DNA of 24,279 nt from a virus: the IMG/VR virus record IMGVR_UViG_3300037961_001587, positions 1 through 24,279 of that record, one strand, 5' to 3'. Shown here in pieces: positions 12,969 through 24,279 of this stretch (position 1 is its first letter; each line of letters opens with the position of its first letter). The notes below the pieces were generated by a model. It searched no databases, was not told the origin of the DNA, and saw only the letters and a program-made list of their open reading frames with translations. The translations under genes were made by a program, and so were the position numbers.

Positions 12969-13145
12969 TTACGGTTTTTCTGTACCCTCGGATTTTTTTA
13001 GAACGACAGACCCATCAGTCTCTTCGCTCCACTCTAATTCAGTCCCCTCATACCATCCAAGATCTTCCATCAATTCAGCAGGCAGAGTAATAGACATATC
13101 TCCGAAGTCGTCTACCTCCACGGGTAGCGTAAATCTTTTGCTCAT
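12969..13145 (-). CDS. AbrB/MazE-fold-like small protein
   Basis: An ATG at 13145 opens 58 codons ending in TAA at 12969-12971. The sequence follows the SpoVT/AbrB swapped-hairpin pattern: a short strand (RFTLPVEVDDFG), then MSITLPAELMEDLGW (17-31), a turn with YEGTELEW, and a closing strand DGSVVLKK (44-51). AbrB-fold proteins are DNA-binding transition-state regulators or MazE-type antitoxins. No toxin gene is adjacent: neighbours are an NlpC/P60-like hydrolase 25 nt upstream and a coiled-coil protein 20 nt downstream. It may be a late-expressed regulator of phage or host promoters, or a virion protein reusing the fold. Confidence 0.8.
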   Translation of the reverse strand: MSKRFTLPVEVDDFGDMSITLPAELMEDLGWYEGTELEWSEETDGSVVLKKSEGTEKP

Positions 13146-13170: not shown

Positions 13171-13716
13171 TTATATAGGAGCAGGATAATTTACAGCATG
13201 TGGAGAACGTAACACTAACTCTGTCATTCTATGATAGAAAGAGTGTACAGTCAAGTCTACAATCTTGCTTGGATCTAACCATGCATGATGTAGCATATAT
13301 CCATGTCCCAGGTAAATACCGCTATGATTGCATAATCTGTCCTGCTTACTCGAATACCCCCCTTCTAGGCGCTCTAAGTGCAGTCTCATGACCATCATGT
13401 CACCATACTGTAAGTCTGAGAAAGGTGGGGGATCACTATCACATGTACCTGTATAGACATGAATGACTCCATCCTCTAATCGCTCTGCCTGATCCTCAAT
13501 AAACGATGGATCAAACAACGCCCGCCGATGTAACTTCGGATAGTCTCGAAGTGTTAGATTAAACTGCTTCTGATAAAACTCCATACAGATGCCATAACAG
13601 TCACCTACCTTCATCTTATCTTTATACCATGGTCTATCCACCCACTCCGTCCAGACCTTGTTCATCTCCTCTAAGGTCGGGCGTGATTCCATAGTGGTAG
13701 TCATCAGTGTCTCCAT
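13171..13716 (-). CDS. NlpC/P60-like cysteine peptidase or amidase
   Basis: This frame encodes 181 residues with the NlpC/P60 arrangement: a candidate catalytic Cys40 at the head of a helix (VGDCYGICMEFY), then LQYGDMMVM (102-110), then His131 opening a strand (NHSGIYLGHGY) and His143/His144 (MLHHAW) as candidate third residue. Such enzymes cut peptide bonds in the peptidoglycan stem; in tailed phages they are often tail-tip proteins that open the wall during infection. It sits among virion genes. The first ATG gives an 83-nt overlap with the upstream gene; internal ATGs at 13701, 13692 and 13665 are alternatives that still retain Cys40. Activity is inferred from motif order only. Confidence 0.78.
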   Translation of the reverse strand: METLMTTTMESRPTLEEMNKVWTEWVDRPWYKDKMKVGDCYGICMEFYQKQFNLTLRDYPKLHRRALFDPSFIEDQAERLEDGVIHVYTGTCDSDPPPFSDLQYGDMMVMRLHLERLEGGYSSKQDRLCNHSGIYLGHGYMLHHAWLDPSKIVDLTVHSFYHRMTELVLRSPHAVNYPAPI

Positions 13717-15515: not shown

Positions 15516-16145
15516 TCATACGGGAATAACGTTGAAAGTGAGTGAGATTCTATTCTCTGATGGGTTAGACTCATAACCATGTGTAAGATTAGATGGATAG
15601 ATGAGACAATCCCCCTGAGAGTAAGGAACAGTTGCTTCTTGCAAATTAAAGGCGGTCATTTGTTCAAACGGGAGCATCATCACTGGGTACATTGCACTAA
15701 CTACATTTCGTTTGAATTTCAAATAGGAGTGCGATTGTTCATTGTAGGAGATGAAGAACGTGCCCGAGAATAAACAGTTTGAATGTTCATGAGGTGCATA
15801 GATTGCGCCTTGGTGTGCTACCTCTAAGTAGCAATCTGAGATCTCAAAGTTTGAAGCATAGCACAATCCTGATTCATTGTGTTTTCTTACTGCTTCAAGT
15901 AGTGTTGCTTTAAGGGAGGGAAGATCTGCGAGAATTTGATTCGTTTCGCCAATCTGTTGGACATTGTGACATAAAACCTGACGTTCTTTGATGTCTACGA
16001 AGTCTTGATTTCTTGCCCATTTCAGAACATCATCAACATGATCTTTCATCTTATACTTTGTAACTGGGGTCATGAAAAGACCGTAAGTTTCAAAGTCGAT
16101 TGCCTCATTAAGATTAGAGGACAGATTAACAGGTTGCTGAGTCAT
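15516..16145 (-). CDS. 2OG-Fe(II) oxygenase family protein A
   Basis: This 209-residue protein has the double-stranded beta-helix signature of the phage/marine 2OG-Fe(II) oxygenase group. The first iron-ligand motif is APHEHSNCLFSGTFF (118-131, His119 and His121), the distal part is GDCLIYPSNLTHGY (178-191, His189), and Arg199 in ENRISLTFNV is the likely 2-oxoglutarate binder. Known members use O2 and 2-oxoglutarate to hydroxylate proteins, nucleic acids or small molecules; the substrate here is unknown. The usual HxD is HxH in this copy, as seen in some relatives. It is flanked by non-coding DNA on both sides, so it may have its own promoter (TATACT at 16181-16186). Confidence 0.85.
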   Translation of the reverse strand: MTQQPVNLSSNLNEAIDFETYGLFMTPVTKYKMKDHVDDVLKWARNQDFVDIKERQVLCHNVQQIGETNQILADLPSLKATLLEAVRKHNESGLCYASNFEISDCYLEVAHQGAIYAPHEHSNCLFSGTFFISYNEQSHSYLKFKRNVVSAMYPVMMLPFEQMTAFNLQEATVPYSQGDCLIYPSNLTHGYESNPSENRISLTFNVIPV

Positions 16146-16180
16146 TTTAATTGAATGATGTAATCAATGCTGTACTATGT

Positions 16181-16186
16181 AGTATA
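16181..16186 (-). promoter_or_regulatory. Candidate -10 element of oxygenase A with palindrome
   Basis: TATACT on the minus strand lies 35 nt upstream of the ATG. It overlaps a small inverted repeat (TACTA-TG-TAGTA) that could bind a repressor. I see no clear -35 hexamer. The upstream 16187-16282 contains no gene. Confidence 0.35.
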
Positions 16187-16282
16187 ACATGAAATGGGGG
16201 CATTGTAGGCGCTTGTAGGTGTCACTGAGAGCGTCAATCGTATTGTGTAGGATAGAGGGGAAATAGTTCTGACCAGTGATAA

Positions 16283-16438
16283 TTAACCGATGAACGCTGA
16301 TTGTGTTGAATCTGTGGTGTAGGGGATGTTACCTTCCTCACCGAAGAGTTCATAATAGAGGGGCGAGAAGATTGCGAAGTCGTCAGTTGCATTGTCATTC
16401 CAAACTTTGAGGATTTCGTTGTAAGTTTCTTGGTTCAT
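16283..16438 (-). CDS. Small unknown protein, 51 residues
   Basis: An ATG at 16438 opens 51 codons ending at TAA 16283-16285. The protein is acidic and aromatic (SPLYYELFGEEGNIPYTTDS, about 25-44), with a helical start (NQETYNEILKVWNDN). Codon composition looks like that of neighbouring genes. It follows the next upstream gene by 45 nt. I do not recognise it. Confidence 0.65.
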   Translation of the reverse strand: MNQETYNEILKVWNDNATDDFAIFSPLYYELFGEEGNIPYTTDSTQSAFIG

Positions 16439-16483
16439 GTTAGTAACGTTTAAGAAGAATGAATTTGATGATGTTGATGACCA

Positions 16484-16801
16484 TTAGAGCGCAATCTCCA
16501 TGCCGTTGGTGAAATCTTCGGTCTTGTTGTTGTTACACACGAACCACTCCCAATTCTTTTGGAAAACACCAACACCGTAGGCGAATTCATGAAGAATAGC
16601 GTTAAGGCGTGATTTAGTGGTGTTAGACTGCCAACCACCATCGAAAAGAATCACACTATCATTTGTGATTGTTGCGATGTGATTGCCGTGAAGTCTGACT
16701 TCGGCGGTGTTATCGGAGTTGATAGAAACAGTGGTGTTAGATGAAGAGAAAGAAGAACGATTGCGGATTGCAGTGTTCATTTGTTGTTCAATCTTACGCA
16801 T
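16484..16801 (-). CDS. Conserved-looking unknown protein, 105 residues
   Basis: This protein begins MRKIEQQMNTAIRNRSSFSS and has a predicted beta-rich middle (AEVRLHGNHIATITNDSVIL, about 34-53) followed by a helix (TKSRLNAILHEFAYGVGVFQ) and KNWEWFV. I recall this arrangement from proteins in cyanophages and other phages, but I know no function. The gene stands behind a conserved palindrome plus GTGTATTATTA element at 16828-16857, about 30 nt upstream of its ATG. Confidence 0.82.
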   Translation of the reverse strand: MRKIEQQMNTAIRNRSSFSSSNTTVSINSDNTAEVRLHGNHIATITNDSVILFDGGWQSNTTKSRLNAILHEFAYGVGVFQKNWEWFVCNNNKTEDFTNGMEIAL

Positions 16802-16830
16802 GATTTGTGTGAATTTCTTTGACTCTTTAA

Positions 16831-16845
16831 TAATACACGATTTTG
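16831..16845. repeat. 15-bp direct repeat TAATACACGATTTTG, copy 1
   Basis: This copy is non-coding and overlaps the GTGTATTA element next to the 16846-16858 hairpin. The identical 15-mer recurs at 16939-16953 inside a small gene. Confidence 0.7.
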
Positions 16846-16858
16846 GGTGCTTAGCACC
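16846..16858 (-). promoter_or_regulatory. Intercistronic palindrome with GTGCTWAGCAC core, site 1
   Basis: GGTGC-TTA-GCACC forms a perfect short hairpin, with the core GTGCTWAGCAC at 16847-16857. On the minus strand GTGTATTATTA follows after exactly 8 nt. It lies 15 nt past a stop codon and 45 nt before the next ATG. The same core, spacing and GTGTATT occur at 18299-18326. It could be an operator and -10 box or an RNA-processing hairpin. Confidence 0.55.
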
Positions 16859-16872
16859 ATGTTGTGTGCCAC

Positions 16873-16995
16873 TTATCTGACTGGCACAGGTTCGACCTCA
16901 TATCTGATGTTATTCGGATAGGTTTTCCGTGCCCAGTTTAATACACGATTTTGCTGTGATTTAATGCCCTTAGATGTCTTCGGAGTTGTGGGCAT
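16873..16995 (-). CDS. Small basic protein, 40 residues
   Basis: An ATG at 16995 opens 40 codons, overlapping the previous gene's end by 26 nt. The sequence is basic (KSQQNRVLNWARKTYPNNIR, about 12-31) and ends in RYEVEPVPVR. A longer start at 17127 would run through a less protein-like frame under two neighbours, so I choose the short one. One copy of the 15-bp repeat encodes QNRVL here. Function unknown. Confidence 0.55.
   Translation of the reverse strand: MPTTPKTSKGIKSQQNRVLNWARKTYPNNIRYEVEPVPVR
16939..16953. repeat. 15-bp direct repeat TAATACACGATTTTG, copy 2
   Basis: Coding copy of the repeat at 16831-16845, 108 bp away, lying in the 40-residue gene. Confidence 0.7.
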
Positions 16996-17149
16996 TGTTT
17001 TCGTCACTTGCATCATTGTGAACTGGTCGTACATCCGAACCAGATACATTTGCGCGGTCGTCTTCATTGTAGTAATCGTTGAATGAGTTCCAAAAATCCT
17101 CCCAATCTTTCGGGGAGTTAGTGACATCGACGATGTTCTTATTGTCCAT
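16970..17149 (-). CDS. Small acidic protein, 59 residues
   Basis: I chose the ATG at 17149, which overlaps the end of the preceding gene by 11 nt, rather than the upstream ATG at 17233, which would overlap it by 95 nt. The protein is acidic and Asn/Asp-rich, with an aromatic helix (KDWEDFWNSFNDYYNEDD, about 14-31) and a disordered tail. It resembles the many small acidic phage proteins of unknown role. Probably translated by coupling with the upstream gene. Confidence 0.62.
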   Translation of the reverse strand: MDNKNIVDVTNSPKDWEDFWNSFNDYYNEDDRANVSGSDVRPVHNDASDENNAHNSEDI

Positions 17150-17372
17150 TGAGAAAGTCATGCAATGCTTCATCGTATTCTGCTTGGGTTTGATATACTC
17201 TCCCGTGAATGTTGAGGGGGAAAGTCTTATCAACTCCTGCTGCTGCTACTGTCTCACAGTCAGCACGATCGTAACCCATTTCAATGAGGTTTTCGACGTA
17301 AGGATTAGTCACTGGTTTGTAAATAGAAAGGTTTGCTAATTCTTGGTTGAGATTGTTGAAAATGTCTTGCAT
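17139..17372 (-). CDS. Small unknown phage protein, 77 residues
   Basis: This 77-residue protein contains YVENLIEMGYDRADCETVAA (about 25-44) and ends with a YDEALHDFL helix, a type of ending I have seen in small cyanophage proteins. Its ATG overlaps the upstream stop (TAATG) and its end overlaps the next gene's start, so it sits in a translationally coupled trio. No enzyme motif is visible. Confidence 0.78.
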   Translation of the reverse strand: MQDIFNNLNQELANLSIYKPVTNPYVENLIEMGYDRADCETVAAAGVDKTFPLNIHGRVYQTQAEYDEALHDFLNGQ

Positions 17373-17608
17373 TATACGATTTGAAATGTGTTGAGGTCGT
17401 TGCGATTGTCACATGCTTCCCATGCATTATAGAAAGAATCCCATGCGACTTCGTTATCAACAAACGAGGAAATATCCAGTTGCTCACATACCCAATCATA
17501 TGCCATATCGATGTCTGCATTTGTATCATTCACAAATGCTTCGAGTTGATTGATAACATCGTCCCATGCTTCGATGTCATTGAAAGGGGAGAAAATTGGC
17601 GTTGCCAT
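17372..17608 (-). CDS. Small acidic helical protein, 78 residues
   Basis: The ATG at 17608 gives a coherent acidic protein with repeated AWD/EAF patterns (DIEAWDDVINQLEAFVNDTN, about 11-30; VAWDSFYNAWEACDN, about 55-69). A longer frame up to 17755 exists, but its extra residues are basic and cross a hairpin and the previous gene's end, so I reject that start. Stop and next ATG overlap (TAATG). No family recognised. Confidence 0.76.
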   Translation of the reverse strand: MATPIFSPFNDIEAWDDVINQLEAFVNDTNADIDMAYDWVCEQLDISSFVDNEVAWDSFYNAWEACDNRNDLNTFQIV

Positions 17609-17659
17609 GTCGTTTCGTTTGATTGATCTTAGTATTGCAGATCTGAGCGCCTGCGGTAG

Positions 17660-17683
17660 TTCACGGTGATACAAAACCGTGAA
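17660..17683 (-). promoter_or_regulatory. Perfect 8-bp intercistronic hairpin
   Basis: TTCACGGT and ACCGTGAA pair around an 8-nt loop, 11 nt after the upstream stop and about 50 nt before the next ATG. No T-run follows, so it is more likely an RNA-processing or stabilising stem than a terminator. Confidence 0.5.
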
Positions 17684-17694
17684 ATTGGGTCCAG

Positions 17695-18288
17695 TTAGAT
17701 GACTGGCACCTCGGTGAGGTTGCTCACGCTGATTTCTTGATAATCTGCCTTGCAATTCTTTCCCTTAACATCATCAATGTCAAAATATAGGTCGATGATC
17801 TTAACAACCTTGCCATATTGTACGAAGAGAACATCATCAATCTTTGTGCGACTCTTTGCACTTACAACATCATCAAAACCTGCGATTTCACCAGTTGTTT
17901 TGAATCGTGGTGCAATTCGTGGGAGTACACTAACAAACAGAATCTTCTTGCAGTTCTTAGCGAGTGGAGAATAATAGAGTCTTGCTGCCTCTCCGATGGT
18001 AGTATTTGCGTAATTCTTGATATTCTTGTTCACATTGCTGTTCATTGCCTTTGCAAGAATAGCGCACACTAATTCACCATTATCATCAAAACCTGCGATG
18101 TCGATGTCAAACGTGCCGCCGAATGCATCCTCGGGGAGTTTATACTCAAACTGCCAGTTTAGTTCAGCGAGATCAGGATTTGCGTTCAGAACCTCATTTA
18201 GGAGCACAGTGTGCAGTTCATCAGTACGCTTTGAAGAGCGAACATTTTGGAAGGAAGTTGTGAGGAAGTTTTCAAGAATCATTGCCAT
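17695..18288 (-). CDS. Unknown 197-residue protein, possible PD-(D/E)XK-like core
   Basis: This protein begins with a helical region (FQNVRSSKRTDELHTVLLNE, about 13-32), then has GGTFDIDIAGFDDNGELVCA (about 57-76) followed by ILAKAMNSNVNKNIKNYANT. The order acidic strand, turn, second strand ending in a Lys, then Asn-rich helix resembles restriction-endonuclease-like folds, in which D and (D/E)xK bind metal. Here the second motif is LAK rather than ExK, so catalysis is doubtful. It could be a degenerate nuclease, a DNA-binding relative, or unrelated. A palindrome element (18299-18330) lies directly upstream, and a hairpin directly downstream. Confidence 0.8.
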   Translation of the reverse strand: MAMILENFLTTSFQNVRSSKRTDELHTVLLNEVLNANPDLAELNWQFEYKLPEDAFGGTFDIDIAGFDDNGELVCAILAKAMNSNVNKNIKNYANTTIGEAARLYYSPLAKNCKKILFVSVLPRIAPRFKTTGEIAGFDDVVSAKSRTKIDDVLFVQYGKVVKIIDLYFDIDDVKGKNCKADYQEISVSNLTEVPVI

Positions 18289-18311
18289 TTGTTTAACTTA
18301 AATACACAATA

Positions 18312-18330
18312 AAATGTGCTAAGCACATTT
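18312..18330 (-). promoter_or_regulatory. Intercistronic palindrome with GTGCTWAGCAC core, site 2
   Basis: AAATGTGC-TAA-GCACATTT is a perfect 8-bp-stem palindrome, core at 18316-18326. On the minus strand it is followed after exactly 8 nt by GTGTATTTA (18299-18307), just before the ATG at 18288. It lies 24 nt past the upstream stop. The T-rich 3' side also fits a weak terminator. Confidence 0.6.
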
Positions 18331-18353
18331 GCAACCGCTCTTGTGACAGTTCC

Positions 18354-18767
18354 TCAATCGTCCATGGGGTTACCTGTTCGCCAGTGTGTCCCCGCGCCTT
18401 TGTAGTTTATTTGTTCTTTCGGACTCGAAAGTTTCATGATTTCTTGTGTCACTGGTTCATTGATATATGCTTCGATGAACTCTTTGCACTCACAAACTGT
18501 CTGACCAGAGTAACATTGAACATAGGAAAATGTAGGCGTCCGCGCTTTCACAATATAACGCGCATTGTCATCAATCCCTTCAATAATAAATGCGGCGAGT
18601 GGTTCACTCCATCCGCCCAATTCCGTAGGATCAGGGAAAATGACATTATCCTCACTAATCCACACATATTCAATGTATTTGTGGCGGTCGATACGCAATG
18701 TGCGCTCAATAATGAGTTGGTCAGTCATTCTTTCGAGTTCGAGAAGTTTGTGTTTAATTCTACCCAA
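18354..18767 (-). CDS. Unknown protein, 137 residues, TTG start
   Basis: The frame begins with TTG at 18767, directly after the previous TAA. GAGG lies 8 nt upstream of that TTG, whereas the first ATG (18728, residue 14) has no good Shine-Dalgarno sequence, so I favour the TTG. The protein has a charged helical start (RIKHKLLELERMTDQLIIER), a probable beta-rich body (YIEYVWISEDNVIFPD, about 32-47), and two Cys in a VCECKEFIEAYI helix (about 91-102). No catalytic pattern is evident. Function unknown. Confidence 0.72.
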   Translation of the reverse strand: MGRIKHKLLELERMTDQLIIERTLRIDRHKYIEYVWISEDNVIFPDPTELGGWSEPLAAFIIEGIDDNARYIVKARTPTFSYVQCYSGQTVCECKEFIEAYINEPVTQEIMKLSSPKEQINYKGAGTHWRTGNPMDD

Positions 18768-18977
18768 TTATCTGCCCTCGCTTAATTCATCTTCTAGCAA
18801 GTCAGGATAATACTCCTCGACTTCATTGATGAGTTCATTGACACTGTATCTTTCAAAGTTTTGCTCTAAACTATCATAAACGAACGCCCACAAGTCTTTG
18901 TGGTCCATGCCATCAATGATGCGCTCAATGTATGCATTTTGGAGTTCATCACGATCGACGATGTTATCAGTGGTCAT
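18768..18977 (-). CDS. Small acidic phage protein, 69 residues
   Basis: I chose the ATG at 18977 (MTTDNIVDRDEL) over one at 19001, because the extra residues are hydrophobic and unlike the rest. The protein is acidic and helical (QNAYIERIIDGMDHKDLWAF, about 13-32, then VYDSLEQNFERYS) and ends EEYYPDLLEDEL. I recall near relatives in many cyanomyoviruses, all of unknown function. It abuts the next gene without a gap. Confidence 0.8.
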   Translation of the reverse strand: MTTDNIVDRDELQNAYIERIIDGMDHKDLWAFVYDSLEQNFERYSVNELINEVEEYYPDLLEDELSEGR

Positions 18978-19016
18978 GAGAATAACAGAAGGAAGGAGCA
19001 TTGAAATAAGATAATA

Positions 19017-19325
19017 TCAGCAAGCGAGACACATTGCTGAGTTGAAAAGTTGTGGTTCAGTGTGCATGTCGGTTACTTCGTAACCATAACCCTCCACACG
19101 GGAGTATACTTCACGATTGAAATCTTTCTTCAACACATAACGCTTCGATTGAGATTGTCCCATGAATGTAACAGTCTTCAAAATGTAGCGGGTGCTGATC
19201 TCACCGTCAGCAAACTTGACGGGGTAGAAGTCAACAACCATGTTCCCAGATTTGGCGGTGAGTTGCATGAAATTCTCAAAATTTCTTTGACCCTTATAGA
19301 ATACATGAAAATCTGCCCAGATCAA
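19017..19325 (-). CDS. Unknown protein, about 102 residues, TTG start
   Basis: The most complete start is TTG at 19325, overlapping the oxygenase TGA (TTGA), parallel to the ATGA junctions nearby; an ATG at 19268 would remove 19 residues. The body is beta-rich and basic (GNMVVDFYPVKFADGEISTR, about 27-46; SKRYVLKKDFNREVYSRVEG, about 60-79), with two Cys at the end. It might be a single-domain beta protein. I do not recognise it. Confidence 0.7.
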   Translation of the reverse strand: MIWADFHVFYKGQRNFENFMQLTAKSGNMVVDFYPVKFADGEISTRYILKTVTFMGQSQSKRYVLKKDFNREVYSRVEGYGYEVTDMHTEPQLFNSAMCLAC

Positions 19326-19909
19326 GGATCAGTGGACAGTTCTCTTGGTGTCACATTCAAATTAAAACTTAGCGTCAATCGGTTAGTGTCATTTTTCTGC
19401 AATCTTACGCCATGACGTACAAACGAAGGGAACACAATCAGGTCGCCTTCATTGATATTGGGTTCATGAACAGGTGATTGCTCAAAAATGTGAGTATATC
19501 CGAGGATTGTATGATCCAAGTTCATATTCTCAAAATAGAATCGTCCATCCTTATCCTTATCGAACTGGATGAAGATCACACCAGAGAAGTTCACGAACTC
19601 AGGATAGTTCACATGATGATGAGGTTCTTGTGCATGTCCACTGTTATACAGATTCAACCATGAATTTACGATCTCAATGTCACAATTCGATGGAAAATAC
19701 TGATACAGATAAGGTGCTAGGACTTGTCCAAGTTCTTCGGGCGGGACGACATCTTTCTCTTCAAAATAAGTCGTGTGAACACTACAATTCCACCGACCCT
19801 CAGCATCACTAAGGAGATGCCTAGCAGACTCCAAAAGGGATCCGAATGTCTCCTTGTGATTGTGAATGTGTGCTTGGTGGTACTTGATTGGGAAGAGTGT
19901 CGTTTGCAT
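19322..19909 (-). CDS. 2OG-Fe(II) oxygenase family protein B
   Basis: This 195-residue protein shows the oxygenase pattern: WNCSVHTTYFE (40-50), SWLNLYNSGHAQEPHHH (83-99) with His97-99 supplying the first iron ligands, NFSGVIFIQF (107-116), EGDLIVFPSFVRHGV (154-168, His166), and Arg177 in NRLTLSFNL as likely 2-oxoglutarate binder. It shares the WNC and SW(L/I)NxY landmarks with oxygenase D, so the two are probably paralogues. Its first 89 nt overlap the end of the lysozyme gene in another frame. The substrate is unknown; protein hydroxylation is a possibility. Confidence 0.86.
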   Translation of the reverse strand: MQTTLFPIKYHQAHIHNHKETFGSLLESARHLLSDAEGRWNCSVHTTYFEEKDVVPPEELGQVLAPYLYQYFPSNCDIEIVNSWLNLYNSGHAQEPHHHVNYPEFVNFSGVIFIQFDKDKDGRFYFENMNLDHTILGYTHIFEQSPVHEPNINEGDLIVFPSFVRHGVRLQKNDTNRLTLSFNLNVTPRELSTDP

Positions 19910-20408
19910 CAGGCGGTGGTGTAAATTTAATCAGTTTCTTGGTGTAATCATATGCATATGTGGTACGATTGCCATGGATACCCCATCCCAACCATTCATA
20001 GGCATGATGCATATAATGCTCAACAGTTTGTCCACGTCCTTGTAAAACAAGGGAGTAACGTATCCACTGTGGTTCATTCACCATGTAGCGAAGTTGTGTC
20101 GCCAGTGTGCTCGGGTCTCCCCCGTATGCGCGGGCAAATTGGGCAAGACCGTCATATCTGCCCTGTGAGGTCCACTGAATGAGACCATATCCACCGATCA
20201 AACATGCATCGTAAGGTAGAATTGCACCGCCTTCACATACATTTGGACGGAAGTTTGATTCTTGTTTGATGTTACCCATGACTGTTGCCAGTGCATTAAC
20301 ATCATGAATCCCCCTCGATTGTAGGAATTCAAGTGTCTGATTCTCTGCTGGTGAGCAGTCTACACACTTGATAATCGGAGGGGGAGTTGGTGTTGAAGTC
20401 AATAACAT
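19821..20408 (-). CDS. Phage tail-lysozyme-type muramidase
   Basis: This 195-residue protein matches the phage tail lysozyme domain known from phi29 gp13 and relatives: VMGNIKQESNFRPN (43-56) with Glu50 as candidate catalytic acid, then GGYGLIQWTSQGRYDGL (about 72-88), then a helical part through TVEHYMHHAYEWLGWG. It would cut the glycan strands of peptidoglycan. There is no signal peptide or membrane segment, so it acts either as a virion tail enzyme or as an endolysin needing a holin; none is clear here. The C-terminus is a Pro/Ser/Gln-rich tail that overlaps oxygenase B by 89 nt. Confidence 0.85.
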   Translation of the reverse strand: MLLTSTPTPPPIIKCVDCSPAENQTLEFLQSRGIHDVNALATVMGNIKQESNFRPNVCEGGAILPYDACLIGGYGLIQWTSQGRYDGLAQFARAYGGDPSTLATQLRYMVNEPQWIRYSLVLQGRGQTVEHYMHHAYEWLGWGIHGNRTTYAYDYTKKLIKFTPPPDANDTLPNQVPPSTHSQSQGDIRIPFGVC

Positions 20409-20443
20409 AATCTAAATTCGAGAGATCAACTAATGAAAGAATG

Positions 20444-20647
20444 TCAAGATTGCTCTGTATCCAACTGGGACAACTGTGGGGATCGCAGCAACTCGTGTTG
20501 GTATTCAAGTTCATTCCACAAACTGTCAATGAGTCCATCGATATATGTACGATGGTTGAGATGTTGAGCAACTCTTTTGAGTTCTAATACCTGCTGTTTT
20601 GCAGACTCAATATGATAACATTCTCTGCTTCTTACGTCAATGCTCAT
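20444..20647 (-). CDS. Small helical protein, 67 residues
   Basis: The ATG at 20647 forms ATGA with the stop of the preceding gene, favouring it over the ATG at 20719. The protein is helical (AKQQVLELKRVAQHLNHRTY, about 16-35; LIDSLWNELEYQHELL, about 39-54) with a polar tail. It may form a coiled coil. Function unknown; it precedes the lysozyme by 35 nt. Confidence 0.74.
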   Translation of the reverse strand: MSIDVRSRECYHIESAKQQVLELKRVAQHLNHRTYIDGLIDSLWNELEYQHELLRSPQLSQLDTEQS

Positions 20648-20844
20648 GCGAAACCGCCTCCTTTTGTCTTTTGATCGATCACATCCACAGTAACACAATA
20701 CTGTGGATAGTTCCACCATGCCTCCATAACTCGCATGTAATCATCAACAATCTTCACACTACCATCGGCACAGTGTATTTTGTATCTATGCCGATCGTAA
20801 GGTTTCTCACATGTTTGCTTAAAGAAACTTGGTAAACCTGTCAT
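20644..20844 (-). CDS. Small conserved-looking protein, 66 residues
   Basis: It starts MTGLPSFFKQTCEKPYDRHR and has a two-strand hairpin (YKIHCADGSVKIVDDYMRVM, about 21-40), then WWNYPQYCVTVDVID. I recall this protein type in cyanomyoviruses without function. It is coupled at both ends by ATGA overlaps. Its YPQYCVTVD codons form a perfect hairpin at 20683-20708. Confidence 0.8.
   Translation of the reverse strand: MTGLPSFFKQTCEKPYDRHRYKIHCADGSVKIVDDYMRVMEAWWNYPQYCVTVDVIDQKTKGGGFA
20683..20708. repeat. Perfect 9-bp hairpin inside a gene, related to 15406-15432
   Basis: ATCCACAGT and ACTGTGGAT enclose an 8-nt loop. The minus strand resembles the plus strand of the 15406-15432 hairpin: both have TCCACAG, a loop containing GTGTTA, then CTGTGGA. 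Confidence 0.55.
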
Positions 20845-20993
20845 GATCGTGGATCCATGTTAGTACAGAGATCGGGATCAATCTTACAAAGACGATCCAT
20901 CTTTTGATCTTGAATTGATTGAACTTTGTTCATTGCAGTGATGCCAATGTTAGCACCAATCAAAACAATGATGAAAGCGAGGGCGATTCTCAT
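20841..20993 (-). CDS. Small single-span membrane protein, 50 residues
   Basis: The ATG at 20993 gives a 50-residue protein with one transmembrane helix (RIALAFIIVLIGANIGITAM, residues 2-21) and a polar C-terminal part with two Cys (LCKIDPDLC). The ATG at 21038 would add 15 residues without hydrophobicity and is less likely. The size and the nearby lysozyme suggest a holin or spanin-like role, but a single short span is not enough to claim it. Its stop forms ATGA with the next start. TATAAT at 21040-21045 is a plausible -10 element. Confidence 0.72.
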   Translation of the reverse strand: MRIALAFIIVLIGANIGITAMNKVQSIQDQKMDRLCKIDPDLCTNMDPRS

Positions 20994-21039
20994 GATAATA
21001 AAAGAATGAAAGAGGGGAGGTCTCGCGTCAGGAGACACA

Positions 21040-21045
21040 ATTATA
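21040..21045 (-). promoter_or_regulatory. Candidate -10 element (TATAAT)
   Basis: The minus strand reads CTATATAATTG, with a perfect TATAAT 46 nt upstream of the membrane-protein ATG. CTGAAC 18 nt further upstream is a weak -35 candidate. It lies just after the upstream gene's stop. Confidence 0.4.
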
Positions 21046-21065
21046 TAGACCCTCTATGTGATAGT

Positions 21066-21254
21066 TCAGCGTTGGAACTTGCCGTGCTTGAATGTAGCAA
21101 ATTCAGGATTGTTGACCCAACGACCCTGAGTGCAATCCCACACGATGGGCAGCGGTTCGGTCTGGGGAGTGTTCGGTGATGCCTTAGCGAGGACCTCACG
21201 GGACTGGGCAAACAGTTCGTCGAGAGTGTAGCGAGCAGGGCGGACGCCGTACAT
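21066..21254 (-). CDS. Small unknown protein, 62 residues
   Basis: This 62-residue protein starts MYGVRPARYTLDELFAQSRE, has a Pro/Thr-rich middle, and ends WDCTQGRWVNNPEFATFKHG. GGAG lies 7 nt upstream of the ATG, a good ribosome binding site. It is the first gene after a late promoter box (21310-21316) and a hairpin (21287-21301), so it is probably strongly expressed late. I recognise no family. Confidence 0.76.
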   Translation of the reverse strand: MYGVRPARYTLDELFAQSREVLAKASPNTPQTEPLPIVWDCTQGRWVNNPEFATFKHGKFQR

Positions 21255-21286
21255 GTGTTGTCTCCGTTGATTACCTAGTAATAATA

Positions 21287-21301
21287 CACGCTCAGAGCGT
21301 G
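21287..21301 (-). promoter_or_regulatory. Perfect 7-bp hairpin followed by GTGTATTATTA
   Basis: CACGCTC and GAGCGTG pair around one base, and the minus strand continues directly into TATTATTA (21279-21286). It lies 20 nt past the oxygenase C stop. A transcript starting from the 21310-21316 late box would carry this stem at its 5' end; alternatively TATTAT is a -10 box. The GTGTATTATTA matches the element at 16828-16838. Confidence 0.5.
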
Positions 21302-21309
21302 CTCACCAC

Positions 21310-21316
21310 TATTTAT
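21310..21316 (-). promoter_or_regulatory. T4-type late promoter box (ATAAATA)
   Basis: The minus strand reads CCATAAATAGTGG in non-coding DNA, 56 nt upstream of the 62-residue gene's ATG. It matches the ATAAATA core of gp55-dependent late promoters in the correct orientation and has the same trailing AG as the box at 15352. Confidence 0.65.
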
Positions 21317-21321
21317 GGACA

Positions 21322-21852
21322 CTAGGAGAACTGGACCCCAAGGTGTGGACAGATCGCACCAAGACTGATACGAATATCTTTTAGCGGTGGATCTCCATCA
21401 TGTTCTAGTCTTGAATCAAAGTAGATAATTCTACCTTGTTTGAATTCCACTTTCTCACCTGTTGCAAATGTCGTACAACCACTATCCCCATAAGCATGGT
21501 ATATAACTGACGTTGCGGCATGATTGAAATCAGTGTGGGTTTGACTAACATGCCCAGGATTTTGTGCATTGACCAATAACCTATGGACATGAGATAAAGG
21601 TAGATCTGCACATACATCTTTAATGATGCATTCATTGAAGTATGCGAAGAACCAGTACCAAGGAGTCTCCTCAGTAAATTCATTGTTTCTGATGACAGTA
21701 TTACCCCAGAATCTTGCCTTTGAATAGTCACCATATGGAGTATTATTATAGAAGAAAGGGAAGTCTGTCGAGAGATAGTTACCCACGTCCCTCACCATCC
21801 AACTGGGGAAATAGTCATCAATGACTGTTATTTTGGTATTAAGGTGTGTCAT
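21322..21852 (-). CDS. 2OG-Fe(II) oxygenase family protein C (prolyl-hydroxylase-like)
   Basis: This 176-residue protein carries the classic facial triad: HTD at 106-108 (SQTHTDFNH), His151 in FDSRLEHDGDPP, and Arg161 in DIRISLG for 2-oxoglutarate. The N-terminal part (TKITVIDDYFPSWMVRDVGN) and the strand RLLVNAQNPGH before the triad are as in prolyl-4-hydroxylase-type phage proteins. The order of motifs and the HxD set it apart from oxygenases A, B and D. Its ATG overlaps the stop of oxygenase D (ATGA). Substrate unknown. Confidence 0.88.
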   Translation of the reverse strand: MTHLNTKITVIDDYFPSWMVRDVGNYLSTDFPFFYNNTPYGDYSKARFWGNTVIRNNEFTEETPWYWFFAYFNECIIKDVCADLPLSHVHRLLVNAQNPGHVSQTHTDFNHAATSVIYHAYGDSGCTTFATGEKVEFKQGRIIYFDSRLEHDGDPPLKDIRISLGAICPHLGVQFS

Positions 21853-22460
21853 CGTTTAATCAATGGAATTTCAGTGCTCATTACAAAATTAGCAGATACA
21901 GTGATACGTTCACTATCCTCACGTTGTGTGTCTACTTGGTGATGCAAATATGATGGGAAGATGAGTATATCACCTTCCTTACATTCGGGGAACCATGTAT
22001 TAACCACTGGATAATGCTTAGAGAAGTATCCGAGGTGCATATTCTGATCTGGATTATAGAAGATGAACTTAGCATCTACCTCAGGATCATATTGTAAGAG
22101 GTATGCACAACTAAACGTGGTGTTATCTCCTCCACAATGTGTATGCACCTCCTGTGAATCACCCTTCTTATATACATTGATCCAACTTTCCTTCATTTCT
22201 ATTTGCACGTTGGGTTTACCACCCAGTTGCTCGTGCATCTCATCTAAATTAGGACGTATTGCCTTAGCAAACACGTCCCACGAGAAGTCTTCATCATTGG
22301 TATCACTCTCAAAGGAGGATTGCAGTGTGCAATTCCACTCGCTCGGTTGTGATGTATTGGCAAATGCTAATTCTGATAGAAGTAGTCCTTTGAGAAACTG
22401 GTGTGCTTCAACTTCACCATGATAGTAGAACTTAGGAAATAAACCTTGAACTTGACCCAT
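21849..22460 (-). CDS. 2OG-Fe(II) oxygenase family protein D
   Basis: This 203-residue protein has EWNCTLQSSFES (41-52), SWINVYKKGDSQEVHTH (92-108) with His106 and His108, SCAYLLQY (117-124), GDILIFPSYLHHQV (163-176, His173 or 174), and Arg185 in SERITVSANF. The layout parallels oxygenase B from end to end, suggesting duplication. As in A, the HxD position is HxH. Its ATG overlaps the helicase stop (TAATG) and its stop overlaps the start of oxygenase C, so the three are one coupled unit. Confidence 0.87.
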   Translation of the reverse strand: MGQVQGLFPKFYYHGEVEAHQFLKGLLLSELAFANTSQPSEWNCTLQSSFESDTNDEDFSWDVFAKAIRPNLDEMHEQLGGKPNVQIEMKESWINVYKKGDSQEVHTHCGGDNTTFSCAYLLQYDPEVDAKFIFYNPDQNMHLGYFSKHYPVVNTWFPECKEGDILIFPSYLHHQVDTQREDSERITVSANFVMSTEIPLIKR

Positions 22461-23704
22461 TATGCAACAAGAGAGAGGGGAGGAATGCCTTTGACGAAGA
22501 TAGCATCAACAACATTTTGTAGACGCTTGACAACGTGAGCACCGTAAGTCTTGTGGACAGGGACAGTAACGAAACCAGTTGGTTTGTTGTACAATCCCCA
22601 CTCACATGCGTTGAGTTCACCAGACTTCAAACGTGCAGCATCATCCTTATCTAGGCGGATAACACGACCGATAGTCTGTGCCATCTCAACAACATTCAAG
22701 TTGCGAAGAAGGATGCAGTGAGTGAGACCAGGGACGTTGATACCTTCGCTGAGGATAGAATAGTGGAACACGATGAACTTCTTAGAAGAATCCTTACCCC
22801 ACTCAGTGAGAGTATTGAAGAATACTTCACGAGATACTTTCACACCATCGATGATAGCACCGAACTTAGATGTGACGTGCATGACACTGTAACCACGCTC
22901 TGCAAGTTGAAGCAGGAGTGTAGTCTTAGAGATCATGTTACCTAGCACGCGACTGCTAGGGACAGCGACGAGAACTTTGCTGGCGTGAGTATCATCGAGA
23001 TTGTCAATGATGTCACGCACAGTGTCAGCATCAACGTCATGAATGTTGTGCTTTGTGCGAGTGTTGTCTGTTTCAAAGGGAACGATAGTTGGAGGGAGGA
23101 TGTGACCCTGCTCAATCAACTCAGGTGCAGGAACGTTACAAATAACAGGACCATACACATCGCTGTTGTTCATGGAACGACCATGCTTGCGAGCGATACG
23201 AGGAGTAGCAGTGAAAAAGTATGCACGATCAGAGAGATCAGAACATGCAGCAGTAGCAGCAAAGAAGTGACGAGTCACACTGTTGTGAGACTCATCAAAA
23301 TATGCAGCATTGATCTCAATACCAGCATCAACAACTTTGTTCAAAGAGTGATAGGTAGTGAAGATAATGCAAGACTCACCTGCTGCACGCGCAGTGTTAG
23401 CGAACAGTGCAATCTTGTCAGACTTGGTGCTGCTGAAATGCTGTGTCTCACCTGAGTGTGCATGACATACATGTGTCCATGTAGATGAAATAAACTGCAT
23501 GAACTCGTCACACAGTTGATTAGCGAGCAGGATACGAGGAGCAACAACAACAATAGTCTGAGGACCGTTGTTGAGCAGTTGACGAGCGTGCTCGATCATG
23601 ATGATGGTCTTGCCACCACCAGTAGGGACGATCACCTGACCCTTGTCAGCGGACTGCATAGCAGCGAGAGCGCGGGACTGGTGGGGTCGTAGTGTGATGG
23701 TCAA
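22460..23704 (-). CDS. SF2 DNA/RNA helicase (ResIII/UvsW-like)
   Basis: This 414-residue protein has the superfamily 2 motifs in order: Q-like start LRPHQSRAL (5-13), Walker A PTGGGKT (27-33), AAYFDESHN with the DESH Walker B (137-140), TATP motif III (165-168), SEGINVPGL motif V (319-327) and QTIGRVIR motif VI (343-350). It would translocate on nucleic acid using ATP. T4 UvsW, which remodels replication and recombination intermediates and R-loops, is the obvious relative, but UvsW is longer (587) and I cannot prove orthology. A TATAAT lies 24 nt upstream. It is translationally coupled to oxygenase D. Confidence 0.9.
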   Translation of the reverse strand: MTITLRPHQSRALAAMQSADKGQVIVPTGGGKTIIMIEHARQLLNNGPQTIVVVAPRILLANQLCDEFMQFISSTWTHVCHAHSGETQHFSSTKSDKIALFANTARAAGESCIIFTTYHSLNKVVDAGIEINAAYFDESHNSVTRHFFAATAACSDLSDRAYFFTATPRIARKHGRSMNNSDVYGPVICNVPAPELIEQGHILPPTIVPFETDNTRTKHNIHDVDADTVRDIIDNLDDTHASKVLVAVPSSRVLGNMISKTTLLLQLAERGYSVMHVTSKFGAIIDGVKVSREVFFNTLTEWGKDSSKKFIVFHYSILSEGINVPGLTHCILLRNLNVVEMAQTIGRVIRLDKDDAARLKSGELNACEWGLYNKPTGFVTVPVHKTYGAHVVKRLQNVVDAIFVKGIPPLSLVA

Positions 23705-23727
23705 GGCGTGTCTGTGTCAGTACATAT

Positions 23728-23733
23728 ATTATA
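23728..23733 (-). promoter_or_regulatory. Candidate -10 element of the helicase gene (TATAAT)
   Basis: The minus strand reads GATGTATAATATATG, 24 nt upstream of the helicase ATG and overlapping the end of the small gene before it. No -35 hexamer is clear, as expected if host sigma factor is assisted by a phage activator. Confidence 0.4.
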
Positions 23734-23735
23734 CA

Positions 23736-23873
23736 TCACTCCTCGTCTTCCACCACCTCTTTGTGCCACTTTCTACACTGGACCTTGTACTCATAATATG
23801 GATCAATTCTTGCCTTTCTCTCCCACTCTTCACATTTCAAAATCTCTTTATAGAGTTTTTCATCATAATACAT
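23736..23873 (-). CDS. Tiny charged protein, 45 residues
   Basis: An ATG at 23873 opens 45 codons ending in TGA at 23736-23738. The protein is helical and highly charged (KEILKCEEWERKARIDPYYE, about 9-28) with an acidic end (EVVEDEE). Its ATG overlaps the stop of the previous gene (TAATG), supporting a real coupled gene. Function unknown. Confidence 0.7.
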   Translation of the reverse strand: MYYDEKLYKEILKCEEWERKARIDPYYEYKVQCRKWHKEVVEDEE

Positions 23874-24205
23874 TAGCGTTTCTCCATTGCTGGTAACATT
23901 TCATTGCCTGGGTGGTCATTAGTCTTACCACGATATGCTTTCTTATGTTGAAAGTATGCTGGATCTAATTCTAAATCATCCCAGTCTGCTTCAAATACAA
24001 CAATACAGCATTTAATCCATGGTGTCTTTGCATGTGGATCCTCGTTAGGTTTCTTACTCACACACAGTGTGATGTATTCATCACTAACGAATTCAATAGT
24101 TCCCTCAAAATCCTGATACCTAGCAGGACACCCAGGTTGTACTGCTTTGATGATGTTCCTGATCTCGATAGGAACTGACTCGGAAATAAAGAGGGGAGTG
24201 CTCAT
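23873..24205 (-). CDS. Unknown protein, 110 residues
   Basis: This is a mostly beta protein beginning MSTPLFISESVPIEIRNIIK, with TIEFVSDEYITLCVSKKPNE (about 36-55) and TPWIKCCIVVFEADWDDLEL (about 61-80). The alternating strand pattern suggests a small OB- or SH3-like barrel, but I cannot assign one. I recall similar proteins in cyanomyoviruses without function. Its ATG overlaps the stop of the partial oxygenase (ATGA). Confidence 0.8.
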   Translation of the reverse strand: MSTPLFISESVPIEIRNIIKAVQPGCPARYQDFEGTIEFVSDEYITLCVSKKPNEDPHAKTPWIKCCIVVFEADWDDLELDPAYFQHKKAYRGKTNDHPGNEMLPAMEKR

Positions 24206-24279
24206 AGTTTTAGAAGCGAAGTTGGGTTGCCATAGTCACCTTTAACCATGACATTAAATGCTAGTGAGTAACGCCTGTT
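24202..24279 (-). CDS. 2OG-Fe(II) oxygenase family protein E (C-terminal fragment)
   Basis: The frame runs in from beyond the window edge and ends with TGA at 24202-24204, giving the last 25 residues. They read RRYSLAFNVMVKGDYGNP, then a short tail. This matches the end of the marine/phage 2OG-Fe(II) oxygenase group, where Arg in (R)xSLxFN binds 2-oxoglutarate and a VKG(x)xG segment follows; compare RISLTFNV in oxygenase A and RLTLSFNL in B. The iron-ligand motifs would lie outside the window. It is coupled to the next gene by ATGA. Confidence 0.6.
   Translation of the reverse strand, partial: NRRYSLAFNVMVKGDYGNPTSLLKL

Follow-up and report, generated by a model that had tools for sequence, protein, structure and literature searches.

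The stretch of DNA analysed here, hereafter the window, comprises positions 1 to 24,279 of virus record IMGVR_UViG_3300037961_001587 (24,279 bases), and its best match in a phage collection is Synechococcus phage S-WAM1, a member of the Kyanoviridae; the relatives of the virus have marine cyanobacteria as hosts. Our subject is a row of genes for 2-oxoglutarate (2OG)-Fe(II) oxygenases, designated A to E, of which four are complete and one is partial and which are spread over 8.8 kb on the minus strand. The oxygenase genes and two genes that stand among them are as follows.

15516..16145, minus strand: oxygenase A, 209 aa; PF13759/phrog_81; HEH...H...R; a separate lineage, and the nearest of the five to the baseplate genes
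19322..19909, minus strand: oxygenase B, 195 aa; PF13759/phrog_81; HHH...H...R; an old paralogue of D
21322..21852, minus strand: oxygenase C, 176 aa; H106-D108...H151...R161; phrog_274
21849..22460, minus strand: oxygenase D, 203 aa; PF13759/phrog_81; H106-H108...H174...R185
22460..23704, minus strand: DNA helicase with ResIII/DEAD and Helicase_C domains, between E and D; a marker of the locus in relatives
23873..24205, minus strand: conserved 110-aa protein of unknown function, phrog_8681; 4-nt overlap with E
24202..24279, minus strand: oxygenase E, last 25 residues only; the gene continues beyond the window (complete relative L007:9393-10004)

The D gene shares 4 nt with that of C and 1 nt with that of the helicase.

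Families, folds and ancestry of the oxygenases

The initial annotation placed five 2OG-Fe(II) oxygenase genes within about 9 kb, and this is confirmed by the open reading frames (ORFs), by profile matches, by the predicted folds of C and D, and by substitution ratios. In the profile search it had proposed, A, B and D score 40.1, 49.7 and 53.9 bits, respectively, against PF13759 (2OG-FeII_Oxy_5; curated cut-off 27 bits), giving no fewer than three members, and all three also match phrog_81. The window fragment of E is weak when taken alone (phrog_81, E 0.056) and has no Pfam match; it is identical at 24 of 25 residues and 76 of 78 nucleotides to a 203-aa gene of L007, a near-identical contig, and because this complete counterpart scores 73.5 bits to PF13759, E is confirmed through its relative.

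Alignment of the A/B/D-type enzymes shows H106, H174 and R185 in 58 of 58 sequences and the middle histidine, H108, in 56 of them. Three representatives outside this alignment also have the pattern HHHR, which across 20 genomes is found in 94 of 105 A/B/D/E-type enzymes, with HHHK in 6. As judged from these alignments, the HxH...H arrangement of A, B, D and E could be an iron site of three histidines; a site with two histidines would also be compatible with Phe or Tyr being tolerated at the middle position. Two A-like oxygenases (L046:19075-19719 and L016:18058-18702) have the middle His of HxH replaced by Phe or Tyr. D, the one PF13759-type enzyme that was modelled, yielded a predicted structure (predicted local distance difference test score, pLDDT, 89.9) with a double-stranded beta-helix fold. 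Its best matches are the PF13759 structures 2RG4 (Z 18.1) and 3BVC (Z 17.9), bacterial proteins of the same fold that were deposited as uncharacterised, and 2RG4, like D, has HxH (HPH) at the aligned place.

In Fe/2OG halogenases, Ala or Gly replaces the Asp ligand. We rejected the possibility that such halogenases are present among A to D, as C has Asp and A, B and D have His at the ligand column, and neither Ala nor Gly occurs at that column in the 176 sequences surveyed, one of which has a gap there.

Oxygenase C had been set apart as a distinct type with an HxD triad. H106, D108, H151 and R161 are invariant in 37 of 37 aligned relatives, and HxD...H...R is exact in 48 of 71 C-type proteins of the wider 20-genome set, which mixes subfamilies. 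The sequence is divergent: it matches neither PF13759 nor any other 2OG family in Pfam, its sole Pfam row being DUF1054 (E 0.22), and its PHROGs matches are phrog_274 (best, 3.3e-26) and phrog_81 (0.0022), while a search of PDB sequences returned diabody chains only, at E 0.45 or worse. Structure prediction, another of the checks initially suggested, gave models of both C and D that match 2OG-oxygenase folds. The model of C (pLDDT 91.0; predicted template modelling score 0.88) has a double-stranded beta-helix fold, and the Foldseek matches listed are 2OG oxygenases, with the DNA-repair protein 3rzh, which we take to be an AlkB-family enzyme, at the top (E 2.9e-6) and many PHD2 entries. VIA-align places P. 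putida prolyl 4-hydroxylase first (Z 16.6, 2.7 A over 156 residues; rows within 1 are tied). Prolyl 4-hydroxylases (the P. putida enzyme, PHD2 and chlorella-virus vCPH) share with C both fold and HxD...H...R, at about 10-17% identity among the matches listed. C is, by its confident model, a divergent 2OG-Fe(II) oxygenase that is predicted to be prolyl-hydroxylase-like.

This assignment bears on nomenclature, as phrog_274 is named 'DNA endonuclease V' and the RefSeq relatives of C bear the same name. For C-type proteins the name looks wrong, given PF13640 relatives, the lack of a nuclease match and the prolyl-hydroxylase-like model. Two other phrog_274 proteins, from a near-identical phage, match PF13640 (2OG-FeII_Oxy_3; cut-off 27) at 30.9 and 27.4 bits, as do an S-RIM44 protein labelled 'DNA endonuclease V' (30.9 bits) and S-TIM4 ORF_50, labelled 'DNA endonuclease' (42.2 bits), and Pfam gave no glycosylase/nuclease family of the T4 endonuclease V (DenV) type for C. 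The label propagated on phrog_274 should be corrected.

Ratios of nonsynonymous to synonymous substitution (dN/dS) relative to L007 and L008, a second near-identical contig, are 0.05-0.09 for A, 0.14-0.15 for B, 0.21-0.22 for C and 0.18-0.24 for D, and the ratio for E, calculated between L007 and L008, is 0.21, values that point to selection on the genes. Relative to S-WAM1, the ratio is 0.05 for B and 0.12 for D and is saturated for A and C. The values for B are less clean, since 89 nt of B overlap another gene. This neighbour is a lysozyme-like gene (PF18013; 19821-20408) that overlaps the start of B, and the same overlap is present in L007 and L008.

In a tree of 123 sequences, a single clade of 20 (support 0.909) contains both B and D, supporting the proposal that they are paralogues, and A and E are separate. 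A, B, D and E each group with sequences of other phages, S-WAM1 or P-RSM6, and for this reason we rejected recent tandem duplication. As B and D each have their own relatives in other phages, the split between them is old.

A locus that joins adhesins, a halogenase and oxygenases

L007 and L008 extend past the end of the window. Upstream of E in L007, on one strand, lie genes for a C-type enzyme, a JmjC_2 protein, a second C-type enzyme, a second JmjC_2 protein, two PF13759 enzymes and then a small acidic protein, and further upstream on the same strand are a Trp_halogenase, two Gly-rich proteins and another PF13759 enzyme. Counted through to A, the L007 locus has two JmjC_2 enzymes besides ten of the PF13759 or C type. 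The JmjC_2 proteins match PF08007 at 9.3e-18 and 8.9e-17, the two scores being 61.2 and 64.4 bits (cut-off 22), and HxD and the later His are present in 12 of 12 aligned JmjC_2 neighbours. The two Gly-rich proteins are tail-fibre adhesins that both match PF21722 (Gly_rich_2), the first also matching phrog_863.

Flavin halogenases are characterised by a flavin adenine dinucleotide (FAD) motif and a WxWxIP motif. The L007 halogenase (PF04820, 1.6e-94, 317.8 bits against a cut-off of 21) has GGGTAG as its FAD motif and WVWDVP, a close variant of WxWxIP; one P-TIM40 copy of 545 aa is without a motif of the WxWxIP type. A marine viral enzyme of this kind, VirX1, is reportedly from a T4-like cyanophage and is said to have been studied on small molecules. 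In S-PM2, an in-frame stop divides the halogenase match (NC_006820.1 121316-122791) into two ORFs, one of 75 aa and one of 410 aa. Between the halogenase and the second adhesin, L008 has a 202-aa gene (phrog_1787; L008:2804-3412) for which a Pfam search gave no match, and at this position in L007 the ORF filter chose an ORF on the opposite strand. On the other halogenase flank is the acidic 180-aa protein (L007:4951-5493), which has relatives in S-SZBM1 and P-RSM6, weak PHROGs matches only, and no Pfam match above cut-off. Either flanking protein could be a chaperone or a substrate.

In relatives the genes of the locus share one strand and follow the order two adhesins (preceded in some by an oxygenase), one or two halogenases, two PF13759 enzymes, JmjC_2 and C-type enzymes, and then E, the helicase, D, C and B. 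From the adhesins to C the genes mostly abut or overlap; beyond C, B and A are interspersed with small unrelated genes. In L008, there is a 4-nt overlap between the first oxygenase gene and the first adhesin gene, and the next gaps up to the halogenase are 32, 6 and 3 nt.

We found 25 such loci in IMG/VR by JmjC similarity only, two of them being the L007 and L008 contigs. Of the 25, 21 show an adhesin gene and 23 a halogenase, the rest starting at or inside the adhesin/halogenase part, and in all 25 every labelled gene is on one strand. Their JmjC proteins are 62-100% identical to the query and gene order is largely kept, with variation in the number of halogenases (one or two) and of JmjC matches (one or two). 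S-WAM1, S-SZBM1, P-RSM6, P-TIM40, syn9 and S-CREM1 have similar gene sets, although the names in their annotations differ, and in S-RIM44 and Sf-FP1 the set is placed between tail fibre and neck genes. At JmjC identities of 33-36%, the combination of adhesin, halogenase, 2OG and JmjC genes is still kept in syn9, S-CREM1, P-TIM40, Sf-FP1 and S-RIM44.

The oxygenases belong to established families, and the phage is of an established kind: T4-like cyanophages (Kyanoviridae) with multiple 2OG genes draw on the same families, PF13759 and PF13640. A description of a locus combining adhesin, halogenase, JmjC and 2OG genes was not found in a limited open-access library. Published accounts of Kyanoviridae, in the portions available, count the genes and refer in general to metabolic, protein-modification or repair roles, and in those portions do not describe a link to adhesins, halogenase and JmjC_2.

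Several other names within the locus deserve mention. The label 'minor coat protein', which looks doubtful for proteins of the locus, is attached to L064:7682-8473, L064:11414-12025 and L307:14102-14866; the first of these is phrog_1644, and syn9 gp52 passes DUF6445 (51.3 bits), with the S-RIM44 protein falling below the DUF6445 cut-off. Proteins to which either the record or PHROGs gives the name 'ferrochelatase' lie in the locus or at its end (L307:16729-17322, L308:18852-19445, L064:12603-13145 and L305:24922-25488), none with a Pfam match at E up to 0.05; those of L307 and L308 are phrog_2954, and the Sf-FP1 record names its copy a dioxygenase.

Number and placement of oxygenase genes in cyanophages

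That a cyanophage should have several distinct 2OG-Fe(II) oxygenases had been anticipated correctly, and the suggested count in related phages gave 4-20 oxygenase genes per genome in 20 complete genomes. Per ~9 kb there are 5-7 in six close relatives, which were chosen by similarity, and 2-5 in fourteen other Kyanoviridae; under a test of uniform placement, clustering has P <=0.0075 in the six relatives and from 0.0005 to 0.93 in the fourteen others. An older table of 16 genomes lists 0-5 oxygenases per genome (PMC3037559), and the available text of later reports gives nine 2OG oxygenase genes for S-SZBM1 (PMC9146016), ten for S-CREM1 (PMC9964418) and 24 for S-SCSM1 (PMC9602691). The oxygenase density of the window is ordinary for Kyanoviridae, and the notion that density is in itself special is not supported, the six relatives having as many or more per 9 kb and genomes with up to 24 having been reported.

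To place oxygenase genes relative to the tail fibre, we used the 14 genomes outside the chosen relatives, with the tail fibre as anchor, and compared the 15 kb on its 3' side with 5000 rotations of gene positions. This stretch contains 34 oxygenase genes versus 8.5 expected, a number reached in 0 of 5000 rotations, and each of the 14 genomes has at least one oxygenase gene there. In W07, W08, W11 and W20 the ORF taken as anchor is exceptionally long (3693-4482 aa) and is perhaps not a true orthologue, and the rotation, halogenase-distance and accessory-gene statistics all ignore shared ancestry. The same stretch has 143 of 1013 flexible non-oxygenase genes, a class relative to which oxygenases (34 of 112, one of the 113 having been dropped by an overlap filter) are enriched (odds ratio 2.65, P 3e-5). 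A random-placement test of the distance between halogenase and oxygenase genes gave a weak result (single P values 0.07-0.73).

Candidate roles of the oxygenase row

In relatives, the row of oxygenases continues a block of genes that opens with those for the tail-fibre tip, which suggests, short of proof, that these phages chemically modify their own host-gripping proteins. The reading we favour, tentatively and without rating it as probable, is that A to E are the downstream half of a virion-tailoring locus that acts mainly on Gly-rich adhesins, its presumed substrates. The initial annotation had proposed a modification system with several substrates: the presence of several 2OG oxygenases stands, and hydroxylation of the virion is favoured among its options because the oxygenase genes attach to tail-fibre adhesin genes in relatives, while density as the sign of such a system is not supported. 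The known relatives of JmjC_2 proteins and prolyl 4-hydroxylases include protein hydroxylases. Under virion tailoring, A to E would be functional Fe(II)/2-oxoglutarate oxygenases encoded in the downstream half of a locus that starts at the tail-fibre adhesin genes, made late together with virion proteins, and would hydroxylate side chains using O2, Fe(II) and 2-oxoglutarate; the halogenase would add halogen to aromatic residues, with the Gly-rich adhesins at the tip of the fibre as the main target, and the modifications may alter adhesin stability or receptor binding. Each oxygenase may serve a different residue or protein, which would fit their old, divergent lineages. In a bolder form that we regard as unlikely, a dozen or so Fe/2OG oxygenases and the flavin halogenase would make up an assembly line that matures host-recognition adhesins, the PF13759 members having a three-histidine iron site where two histidines and one carboxylate are usual. 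If true, oxidative and halogenating tailoring of the tail-fibre tip by viral enzymes would add a new type to the post-translational modifications of phages. The link of oxygenases to adhesins, halogenase and JmjC_2 turns broad guesses into a testable proposition.

Collagen-like substrates were considered as a general rule and rejected, since runs of at least six Gly-X-Y triplets occur in 3 of 20 genomes (W04, W10, W18); proline-rich Gly-X-Y runs occur in P-SSM2 only (20 genomes, ORFs of at least 100 aa).

Experimental evolution of S-TIM4 hints at an independent connection between 2OG genes and the tail. According to the available part of that report, 14 of the 20 genes mutated on poor hosts are particle-associated, all but two of the eight mutated genes with an ascribed function are tail fibres and baseplate, and ORF23, a 2OG gene, is one of six other mutated genes (PMC6224464). 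ORF23 passes PF13640 at 39 bits, and its neighbours are genes for a tail protein and a tail fibre, on one side with CP12 intervening.

A number of observations weigh against virion tailoring. The authors of the S-TIM4 study interpret ORF23 as nutrient-related in the text available (PMC6224464), and ORF23 may not be an orthologue of A-E. On the 3' side of the tail fibre lies a hotspot for accessory genes in general, and relative to non-oxygenase genes common to 2-7 genomes (86 of 385 in the 15 kb) the share of oxygenases, 34 of 112, is not significantly higher (P 0.10); 79 of the 113 oxygenase genes of the 14 genomes (~70%) lie elsewhere. In genomes that were not selected for similarity, the number of oxygenases within 8 kb of a halogenase is 0-3, close to what is expected: none in S-PM2 and S-ShM2, 2-3 in three others, and none beside the short halogenases of P-TIM40 and S-SSM7. 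The locus itself undergoes gains and losses, with E missing in L089, L092 and L107 and an extra oxygenase in L108, and an oxygenase precedes the adhesins in 7 of the 18 loci long enough to show this. In Syn30, a JmjC_2 gene stands apart from loci of this kind, close to replication and porphyrin genes. Among 23 genomes, full-length JmjC_2 turned up in the six similarity-chosen relatives only, with one weak match in P-SSM2, and the link between JmjC_2 and adhesins therefore depends on the IMG/VR loci together with S-RIM44 and Sf-FP1, every one of which was found through JmjC.

The main rival, which we also rate as unlikely, is that the oxygenases and halogenase make or decorate a small molecule or sugar, such as a secondary metabolite or a surface polysaccharide of the infected cell. 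A metabolite or capsule role has been proposed in print for a 10-gene S-SSM6a cluster that, like the locus described here, has a halogenase, several 2OG enzymes and cupin-like proteins; the cluster, in the portion of the report available, also has carbamoyl transferases, HAD phosphatases and a HemK-like methylase (PMC7824862), none of which was found in our locus. Transferase or scaffold genes are what this rival would predict, and in S-TIM4 a carbamoyltransferase gene does lie, on the opposite strand, between the Gly-rich gene and the oxygenases. No carbamoyltransferase, glycosyltransferase or scaffold enzyme was found among the adhesin-to-C genes scanned in L007 and L008 (all but a 64-aa ORF), nor is one annotated in S-RIM44, Sf-FP1, syn9 and S-CREM1 between the adhesins and the point where the contiguous run of oxygenases ends; the S-CREM1 stretch has one gene named triphosphate nucleotidohydrolase. 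Such a step could be hidden in phrog_1787, phrog_7084 or the acidic 180-aa protein.

Reprogramming of the host, through hydroxylation of translation factors or other host proteins or through a drawdown of 2-oxoglutarate that tunes nitrogen signalling, strikes us as quite improbable. JmjC_2 members include ribosomal oxygenases, and the fold of C is among the closest to that of the prolyl hydroxylase of P. putida whose structure was determined with EF-Tu (4j25, 4iw3). A connection between 2OG and NtcA has been proposed in print (PMC3037559, in the part available). Many divergent enzymes would be needless for lowering one metabolite, however, and a site beside late tail genes would not be expected of takeover genes.

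It is very improbable, in our estimation, that the genes have no common function and are unrelated auxiliary oxygenases gathered in an insertion hotspot. The general enrichment of accessory genes 3' of the tail fibre, the divergence of the oxygenase lineages and the gains and losses in the locus are what such gathering would leave, but gene order is largely kept among the loci whose JmjC proteins reach 62-100% identity to the query, and at 33-36% JmjC identity the five phages named above still have the adhesin-halogenase-2OG-JmjC set.

Least probable of all, and very improbable in itself, is a role in DNA repair or modification, whether AlkB-like or following the 'DNA endonuclease V' label: the top Foldseek row for C is a direct DNA-repair protein, a helicase gene sits between E and D, S-TIM4 ORF_50 has a weak Oxygenase-NA match below its cut-off, and some cyanophage 2OG genes adjoin uvsX or uvsY (PMC2984593, in the part available; Syn30 likewise), but VIA-align ranks prolyl hydroxylases first for C within the tie noted above, C is without a nuclease or glycosylase family match, and the enzymes considered here are located by tail genes.

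Elsewhere in the window, positions 13171-13716 encode an NlpC/P60-like protein that scores 23.9 bits, barely above the Pfam cut-off of 23, and positions 12969-13145 a MazE-antitoxin-like protein (PF04014, 2.3e-8).

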